Positions 25,904 through 28,507 of a DNA stretch of 64,000 nt are shown here, one piece after another. How positions within the stretch are numbered: the stretch's first letter is position 1; each line of letters begins with the position of its first letter. This stretch comes from an uncultured Gammaproteobacteria bacterium (GTDB lineage Bacteria > Pseudomonadota > Gammaproteobacteria > Pseudomonadales > Litorivicinaceae): the NCBI GenBank assembly GCA_913057215.1, contig CAJXNQ010000002.1, positions 1-64,000 on the forward strand, in the 5' to 3' direction. Made by a program: the position numbers and the translations under genes. Under the pieces are notes generated by a model. The model was not told the origin of the DNA. It worked only from the letters and a program-made list of their open reading frames with translations, and searched no databases.

Positions 25904-26278
25904 TTAGTGCTTTGTGACAGACTCCATTGCACCTTTGACGATGTTTGATGCTTCGTCACGGCTTTTCACAAGTGTCTCTTGTGAAGATTTTGCCGCGTCG
26001 ATCAAACGTGCTTGCAAGCCCTGGAGGTATGACTTCTGAGATTCAACAGCTGACGCCATGTCCTTCTCAGATGACAGTGCTTTCGCCTGCTCCATTGCGC
26101 CTTCAACCAGCTCTTTGACCAGTGCAGTTTGCTGCTCAACCAACGATTCAACCGTTGACTTGTTGATCTCAAACAGATCAGTCATTGGCTTCATAGCAGT
26201 TTCGTAAGACTTGGTGTCAAACATCTGCTTCATGTTGCTCTGCATTTCTTCAATCATTTTTGCGTACATGGGATTCAC
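25904..26278 (-). CDS. Phasin family protein
   Basis: 124 aa Ala/Lys/Glu-rich helical; MNPMYAKMIEEMQSNMKQMFDTKSYETAMKPMTDLFEINKSTVESLVEQQTALVKELVEG; adjacent to phaR/phaC. Confidence 0.85.
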   Translation of the reverse strand: MNPMYAKMIEEMQSNMKQMFDTKSYETAMKPMTDLFEINKSTVESLVEQQTALVKELVEGAMEQAKALSSEKDMASAVESQKSYLQGLQARLIDAAKSSQETLVKSRDEASNIVKGAMESVTKH

Positions 26279-26292
26279 TCCTTTTCAACAAT

Positions 26293-26368
26293 TTGTGCGG
26301 TGCACAAGGTATGGAGTAAAGATAGCATGTTGCAGTGCAACGTCAACACTTTTTTGTGCATCGCACCA
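26293..26368 (-). promoter_or_regulatory. Phasin promoter with three TGC-N3-GCA inverted repeats (candidate PhaR operators)
   Basis: TTGTGC-GGT-GCACAA (26293-26307), GTTGC-AGT-GCAAC (26329-26341), TTGTGC-ATC-GCACCA (26354-26368); minus-strand -35 TTGACG (26346-26341), N16, -10 TATCTT (26324-26319). Confidence 0.7.
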
Positions 26369-26377
26369 AAAAAAGAA

Positions 26378-26827
26378 TCAGTCTTTGGTCTTAGTCTGAT
26401 TCCCCAGCATCGATTGGGACATTGATTCCCACAGTTTCAAATTATCTTCCGTCATTTTTTGCATCATACCGATGGGCGTTGCGCCAATGACTGAGCGCAT
26501 TTGATCCTGCATCACTTCTTGTTGATTTAAGAAAAATGAGATGGATTGTTCGAGGAAGTGGGCCATATTGGTCTGCATACCGGAGCCGTAGAAACGAATT
26601 AGGTGTTGCAACACTTCATTGGTGAGGACGTGTTCACCGGCATCATTTTCCTGCTCCATGATGATCTGCAAGAGAATTGAGCGCGTGAGATCCTCCCCCG
26701 TTTTTGAGTCCACTACACGGAAACGCTCATGCCCGAGAACCAGATCGCGCACGTTATCAATCGTCACATAGCAGCTTTGTGAGGTGTCATACAGCCGTCT
26801 GTTGGGGTATTTTTTCAGAGTACGCAT
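26378..26827 (-). CDS. phaR: Polyhydroxyalkanoate synthesis repressor PhaR
   Basis: MRTLKKYPNRRLYDTSQSCYVTIDNVRDLVLGHERFRVVDSKTGEDLTRSILLQII. Confidence 0.95.
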   Translation of the reverse strand: MRTLKKYPNRRLYDTSQSCYVTIDNVRDLVLGHERFRVVDSKTGEDLTRSILLQIIMEQENDAGEHVLTNEVLQHLIRFYGSGMQTNMAHFLEQSISFFLNQQEVMQDQMRSVIGATPIGMMQKMTEDNLKLWESMSQSMLGNQTKTKD

Positions 26828-26908
26828 GATGCTGCCTTGTTATGTTGAAACTATATATCGGACTGTACCGATAAAATCGGCTCATCGCAAAAGGACACGA
26901 GGCCTAAG

Positions 26909-28507
26909 TTGCAAGGATTACAAGGGTTTGACCCAGAGCACACCGAATGGATGCAGGTTTGGCTGAAACGCCTCGCCGATGAGCATGCGTTGTTGACCTT
27001 TATGGATCCGTCACCAGTTGCCGAGTTATCACAGGCGCTGACTGCACTGGCGAGCAACGATCCGGCACGGTTTCAGAGTCTGCAATCCGATGTCTTGCCC
27101 CAGATGTTGTCCGCCTTCATTCGCACCGATGCGACCGATGAGGACTGGCTGTCGTTGATGGATCAATGCATCGCAGCGCTCCCTGAGGTTGAAGATTTTG
27201 ATCGCAGTCGGGTGCTGTGGTTGATTCGCCAGCTCCAAGATTCTGGTCGTCTTGTCGAGCGTGTCCGGACCATGCTCGAGACCAAGTCCGTGAACCTTGA
27301 GCAGGGGATCCGACACTGGCAAGAAGACATTGTGGCCGGCGCAGTCCTTCCAGACACCTTAAGACCCGAGACCTTTCGCCTTGGCGAGACCTTGGCGACC
27401 ACGCCAGGGGATGTGGTTTTTGAAAATCAGTTATTTCAGTTGATTCAGTACCGCCCGAGTACACCCGCCGTCGCTGAACACCCCATGCTGTTGGTCCCAG
27501 CCTTTGTGAATCGGTACTACATCTTGGATCTGTCGCCCGAGATGTCGATGGTGCGTTGGTTGGTTAGCCAAGGCCACACGGTCTTCCTGATCAGTTGGGT
27601 CAATCCCGATGCAGGTCTTGCCAATTATGATGTCACCCATTATGTGCTCGATGGCGTATTGGCAGCACTGGATCAAATGGATCGGATGCTCAACGGTCAA
27701 CCTGTTCAGTTGGTGGGGTATTGCGCCGGTGGTGTGCTTGCAAGCATTGCGGCGGCCTGGCTTGCTACGCGTGGTGAGCAGCGTATTGTCTCGCTCACAT
27801 TGTTGACGACCTTATTAGATTATTCAGATGCAGGGCCGCTGGGCGATCTTGTGACTGAGTCCTCCGTTGATGCCCTGACTCAACCGCTTGAGACACTGGG
27901 GTATCTGCCTGCTGAACTGCTCTTACGCACCTTCGCAAGCCTTCGGCCAACCGATCTCATGTTCGCGCGCGGGCTCCATTCGTATATTCTGGGTGAGCGT
28001 CACAAGCCGTTACCGTTATTGCATTGGCTGGGTGATGGGACGCGCACGCCTGCTGCGCTGGTGTTGTGGATTTTAAAGTCTTTATATCTTGAGAATCGAC
28101 TGATTGATGGCGAGCCGCTCATCATTGCCGGTCAATCAATTGACCTGTCTAAATTGGACATTCCTGTGTTCTTGTTCGCCTGTCAGAACGATGAGATTGC
28201 GCCATGGGCCAGTGCAATGCGCATTGCGGATGTATTCAGCGGGCCTGTGACCTGCGTGCTTGGCCAAGGTGGGCATAATTCGGGAGTCGTTTGTCCTCCC
28301 GATTCGGCACGCTACGATCATTTTCGAATGGATGGTAAACAGCCGACTGATCTGGACCGCGCGCTTCACGTCAAAGGCAGTTGGTGGAACAGTTGGTTGG
28401 CGTTTCTGACAGAGACTCAGGGCCAAGCGTCTGTACCTCCAGCGCCCGGTGGCGGTCTCCGTCCTGTATTGGAGCCCGCCCCCGGTCGCTACGTCCGGCA
28501 GCGTTGA
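26909..28507 (+). CDS. phaC: Poly(3-hydroxyalkanoate) synthase, class I-like
   Basis: Lipase-like box GYCAGG, catalytic-type FACQNDEIAPW and GQGGHNSGVV, C-terminal PAPGGGLRPVLEPAPGRYV. Confidence 0.93.
   Translation: MQGLQGFDPEHTEWMQVWLKRLADEHALLTFMDPSPVAELSQALTALASNDPARFQSLQSDVLPQMLSAFIRTDATDEDWLSLMDQCIAALPEVEDFDRSRVLWLIRQLQDSGRLVERVRTMLETKSVNLEQGIRHWQEDIVAGAVLPDTLRPETFRLGETLATTPGDVVFENQLFQLIQYRPSTPAVAEHPMLLVPAFVNRYYILDLSPEMSMVRWLVSQGHTVFLISWVNPDAGLANYDVTHYVLDGVLAALDQMDRMLNGQPVQLVGYCAGGVLASIAAAWLATRGEQRIVSLTLLTTLLDYSDAGPLGDLVTESSVDALTQPLETLGYLPAELLLRTFASLRPTDLMFARGLHSYILGERHKPLPLLHWLGDGTRTPAALVLWILKSLYLENRLIDGEPLIIAGQSIDLSKLDIPVFLFACQNDEIAPWASAMRIADVFSGPVTCVLGQGGHNSGVVCPPDSARYDHFRMDGKQPTDLDRALHVKGSWWNSWLAFLTETQGQASVPPAPGGGLRPVLEPAPGRYVRQR

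Follow-up and report, generated by a model that had tools for sequence, protein, structure and literature searches.

The phaR-phasin locus and the phasin promoter

The window, the whole stretch of 64 kb of DNA analyzed here, belongs to contig C2 of a genome of 1.58 Mb, the nearest relatives of which are Litoricola/OM252-type marine gammaproteobacteria, e.g., HIMB30 and LSUCC0096. The phbBC genes were reported in OM252 genomes, together with two phasin genes in many of them (PMC8269220); in the accessible parts of that paper, no mention of the regulation of these genes was found. On the minus strand of the window, phaR (26378..26827) is followed, after a gap of 108 bp, by a phasin gene (25904..26269; Pfam Phasin_2, 6.7e-14; TIGR01841 above cutoff), which starts with an ATG at 26269..26267 and is preceded by the Shine-Dalgarno sequence AAGGAG at 26283..26278, both read from the sequence. 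The product of phaR contains the Pfam domains PHB_acc_N and PHB_acc and scores 135.8 bits against TIGR01848 PHA_reg_PhaR (cutoff 109.45), so that the gene next to the phasin was correctly named as phaR in the initial annotation; it is present in a single copy in the genome. Among solved structures, no meaningful match to PhaR was obtained, and no terminator was found by the scan between phaR and the phasin gene. Divergent from phaR, a second PHA synthase-like gene (26909..28507, plus strand; Pfam PhaC_N) is detected by TIGR01838 at 415 bits, under the class I cutoff of 622.65. This gene is held at the phaR locus in many genomes of the genus, and the regular phaC is located separately (C1:88520-90232).

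Three inverted repeats lie within 76 bp between the two genes, exactly as had been described: site 1 (TTGTGC-GGT-GCACAA, 26293..26307), site 2 (GTTGC-AGT-GCAAC, 26329..26341, with the core at 26331-26339) and site 3 (TTGTGC-ATC-GCACCA, 26354..26368), all with an RNY centre. The promoter scan revealed a phasin promoter, TTGACG-16-TATCTT, on the minus strand (26346..26319), consisting of the -35 box TTGACG (26341..26346) and the -10 box TATCTT (26319..26324), the latter preceded by TGC and classed as an extended -10 by its TG. One match of such quality is no more than shuffled sequences yield (mean 1.4), and the boxes are backed by their conservation in relatives, in the genus as well as in its sister genus. 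In the direction of transcription, the order is site 3, the -35 box, site 2 within the 16-bp spacer, the extended -10 TGCTATCTT, the start point, and site 1. The scan thus bears out the proposed geometry, in which the middle repeat fills the spacer and the other two fall just past the predicted start point and just upstream of the -35 box. Site 2 occupies the spacer and has one base in common with the -35 box; site 3 lies directly on the upstream side of this box, separated from it by 7 bp; and site 1 begins about 5 bp past the start point expected from the promoter boxes, which puts it at approximately +6 to +20 in the phasin transcript. As would suit a promoter under the control of PhaR, the region has sites that overlap or abut the conserved sigma-70 boxes TTGACG and TGnTATCTT, the start point being a predicted one. 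Site 3 is also situated about 10 bp past the stop codon of phaR and is flanked by AT-rich arms; with these arms (26351-26371) it matches the 21-mer of Sinorhizobium meliloti with 0 mismatches.

Conservation and recurrence of the sites

The region downstream of phaR was compared among 17 genomes of the genus, the source genome included, all of which carry the phaR-phasin locus. All three sites are present in 15/17 of these genomes and two sites in the remaining 2/17, with spacings of 25-27 bp and 34-35 bp, and phaR adjoins the sites in all 17. With the window as the reference, mean identity is 0.99 for the 18 TGC/GCA positions and 0.99 for the promoter boxes, and 0.66 for the other 64 spacer positions. 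The core of site 1 is invariant in the 17 genomes, and the central triplets differ among genomes yet stay RNY. In the sister genus, three slightly weaker sites, spaced 24 and 37 bp, were found in both loci. One member of the genus (G014) has a shortened phaR, without sites there or at gltA; no phasin or PHA synthase was detected in this genome, which is about 87% complete, so that absence elsewhere is no proof, and the second synthase gene is missing at the phaR locus itself. In Litorivicinus sp. AH-657-M20 (L028, L047), phaR is kept in a shortened form, where the neighbouring second synthase and phasin genes are gone, no PHA synthase was found, and PhaR-type sites are also missing.

Pattern searches covered the genome, and further good matches were located upstream of phaC, the second phasin gene, an HHH-phasin-like gene, maoC-pta-ackA, fabI, and gltA/sdhC. 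Among evaluable loci of the genus, a site is present upstream of the HHH-phasin-like gene in 14/14, of phaP2 (the second phasin gene, divergent from acetoacetate-CoA ligase) in 12/12, of maoC-pta in 7/7, of fabI in 4/4, of phaC in 16/17, and of gltA in 12/15. The same type of site at these genes points, with a confidence as high as that in the phasin operators and jointly with them, to a predicted PhaR regulon that would comprise the second phasin, the HHH-phasin-like gene, phaC, maoC-pta-ackA, fabI, and gltA.

Several features of these loci were also recorded. The HHH-phasin-like protein has 168 aa and a PhaH-like helix-hairpin-helix C-terminus (L003:1506-2012), and a pair of conserved PhaR-type sites, spaced by about 37 bp (L003:1990-2140), is common to its gene and the divergent gene of a Crp/Fnr-like regulator. 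Two MaoC-phosphotransacetylase fusion genes occur (L010:1971-3901 and L002:1-2101), one followed by acetate kinase and the other preceded by fabI, and a conserved PhaR-type site lies upstream of each operon.

Enrichment of the bare motif was considered as proof and rejected: in 25 genomes of the family, TGC/GCA pairs were counted 142 times with a 3-base spacer, 51 times with a 2-base and 102 times with a 4-base spacer, which are only moderately apart. The reversed-pattern control for the bare motif gave 22, in a pattern with unmatched dinucleotides. Since the 3-base spacer exceeds its 2- and 4-base controls only moderately, many unconserved matches are background, and single motif matches are not reliable unless they are conserved. 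The candidate sites at C5:14690, C6:654, C6:56508, and C15:9261 lie inside coding sequence or at its margin.

Probable identity of the binding protein

PhaR sites were tested by footprinting or EMSA in four other genera, with the motifs TGCRNYGCASMA in Bradyrhizobium (PMC6201568), YTKNTGCRNYGCANMAR in Ralstonia eutropha (PMC12849132), TG[N]TGC[N]3GCAA in Herbaspirillum (PMC3206438), and WNWD2NYGCRNYGCRNH2WNW in S. meliloti (PMC12542648). These motifs have a common core, either TGC-RNY-GCA or TGC-N3-GCA, and certain bases are preferred outside it (PMC6201568, PMC12849132, PMC3206438, PMC12542648). In the window, only sites 1 and 3 match the Bradyrhizobium consensus, each on both strands, and a perfect copy of TTGTGC-N3-GCACAA was found by pattern search once in the 1.58 Mb genome, namely at site 1. 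The window was scanned with a matrix that, to avoid circularity, was derived from 39 distinct sites in other genomes of the family, all of them taken from other promoters. The three sites took the top three scores, 21.0 bits for site 1, 20.5 bits for site 3, and 17.0 bits for site 2; the best other position in the window reached 12.8 bits.

The proposal that PhaR operators lie over the phasin promoter thus gains support from a motif that equals the mapped PhaR sites, is conserved, and recurs at PHB genes. Sequence comparison shows the sites and how well they are conserved, the boxes of the promoter, the presence of the motif at PHB genes, and that the regulator is PhaR, all of which argues that the three repeats are very probably operators for the PhaR encoded directly upstream, through which the phasin gene would be repressed until granules release it.

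Another repressor with operators near phaR might bind the sites instead, for instance the Crp/Fnr-like regulator divergent from the HHH-phasin-like gene, in whose own upstream region two sites of this type are situated. This assignment is very unlikely, as the motif is that of the PhaR sites mapped in the four other genera, the marked genes belong to PHB metabolism, and phaR stands beside the sites throughout the 17 genomes of the genus. Moreover, Crp/Fnr boxes differ in form from the TGC-N3-GCA sites. Less probable again is that site 3 is no operator and instead forms an RNA hairpin, a terminator or processing signal, at the 3' end of the phaR transcript, as its closeness to the phaR stop codon and the runs of T and A on its flanks might suggest; the hairpin was rejected because the fold is no better than that of shuffled sequences (z = -0.80) and leaves the palindrome unused, the scan gave no terminator at this position, and the central bases vary as RNY like those of the other sites. 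Chance clustering of a common 6-base palindrome is the least credible explanation, for although the window has no excess of bare TGC-N3-GCA (31 found vs 33.9 expected) and three copies fell within 70 bp somewhere in 44/2000 simulated windows (2.2%), so that the cluster of bare motifs by itself is only modestly unusual, chance is excluded by the fuller sites, site 1 being unique in the genome and the strict Bradyrhizobium consensus restricted to sites 1 and 3, by the extended arms and top three matrix ranks, and is refuted already by the strong positional conservation in the genus and sister genus.

Predicted repression of the phasin gene and proposed autoregulation of phaR

In the bacteria studied so far, PhaR blocks RNA polymerase at phasin promoters, and nascent PHB titrates PhaR away (PMC12542648, PMC12849132, PMC3206438, PMC3570403). 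By analogy, binding of PhaR, repression, and release by PHB are inferred for the present locus. In the absence of PHB, PhaR, probably as dimers or tetramers, would occupy the sequence upstream of the -35 box, the spacer, and the transcript start, and RNA polymerase would be kept off the phasin promoter; the promoter geometry fits such steric occlusion. As PHB granules form, PhaR would be drawn to the polymer and off the DNA, after which phasin would be made and the granules coated. PhaR at site 3 could, as a guess, also impede read-through from phaR into the phasin gene, which is conceivable because no terminator separates the two in the scan.

Cooperative binding had been part of the initial proposal. 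PhaR of R. eutropha binds the phaP promoter in a sigmoid manner (PMC3570403), and less PhaR is needed in EMSA when two sites are present (PMC12849132); by comparison with this system, cooperative binding is plausible here. Measured between their centres, the sites are 35 and 26 bp apart, or 3.3 and 2.5 helical turns, and are not helically phased, which argues against simple side-by-side cooperative contacts. The conserved spacing may be imposed by the promoter elements.

Autoregulation of phaR, which had been proposed along with it, is unsupported, because no TGCRNYGCA occurs in the 250 bp that precede phaR, either in the window or in the other 16 genomes of the genus examined, and the three sites are on the downstream side of phaR, where they would govern the phasin gene. 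A possible phaR promoter without a PhaR site, TTGCGA-17-TACAGT (26862..26890, minus strand), was recognized in the alignment of phaR upstream regions as a weak match under the scan threshold, with the TTGCG portion conserved among genus members. A conserved element TTTTTGCGCTCGCAT (TGC-N4-GCA) is found upstream of phaR in L013-L019, L021, L024, L025, and others, and is absent from the source genome except for its TTTTGCG half; as an autoregulatory site it was rejected, given its wrong spacer, its absence from the source genome, and the likely role of TTGCG as the phaR -35, and it is probably the -35 region of phaR. Negative autoregulation of phaR is weak or absent in S. meliloti as well (PMC12542648). 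In Acidobacteriota and related MAGs (L056-L072), a phaR-like gene is preceded by one TGCRNYGCA, at about -64 or -120, which suggests that autoregulation may occur there.

The layout of the sites is the pair flanking the -35 box known from Bradyrhizobium and Sinorhizobium plus the start-point site known from R. eutropha. At phaP1 of R. eutropha (Cupriavidus necator) H16, PhaR palindromes likewise lie by the -35 box of a sigma-70 phasin promoter and at its start point, with three sites predicted in all (PMC12849132). The third of these is within the coding sequence in R. eutropha but in the -35/-10 spacer here, where the whole set takes up 76 bp. Two footprinted sites with the same consensus are positioned 6 bp upstream and downstream of the -35 box at phaP1 of Bradyrhizobium diazoefficiens USDA110, as are sites 3 and 2 on either side of it here; unlike here, no third site at the start point is described in the accessible part of that report (PMC6201568). 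In S. meliloti, pairs of PhaR (AniA) sites with AT-rich arms also flank the -35 box at phaP1 and phaP2, and gltA and sdhC are among the predicted targets, as here (PMC12542648). The targets differ otherwise, with sites at maoC-pta-ackA, fabI, acetoacetate-CoA ligase, and phaC in the present genome. The type of switch was already known, and what is described here is a real and conserved array of predicted operators in a marine bacterium.

The chances are about even that PhaR in Litorivicinus/OM252 acts more widely as a carbon-overflow regulator without a site of its own, in which the triple operator would shut the phasin gene tightly and single or double sites would couple the state of the PHB granules to citrate synthase, MaoC-Pta/AckA, FabI, and acetoacetate-CoA ligase. 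The locus allows phasin repression, for which there is support, to be told apart from phaR autoregulation, for which there is none here, and it indicates that the PhaR operator code of alpha- and betaproteobacteria holds in this gammaproteobacterial family. The sites would define, by sequence, a conserved PhaR regulon for a surface-ocean clade of bacteria that is widespread, has been little studied, and has cultured members.
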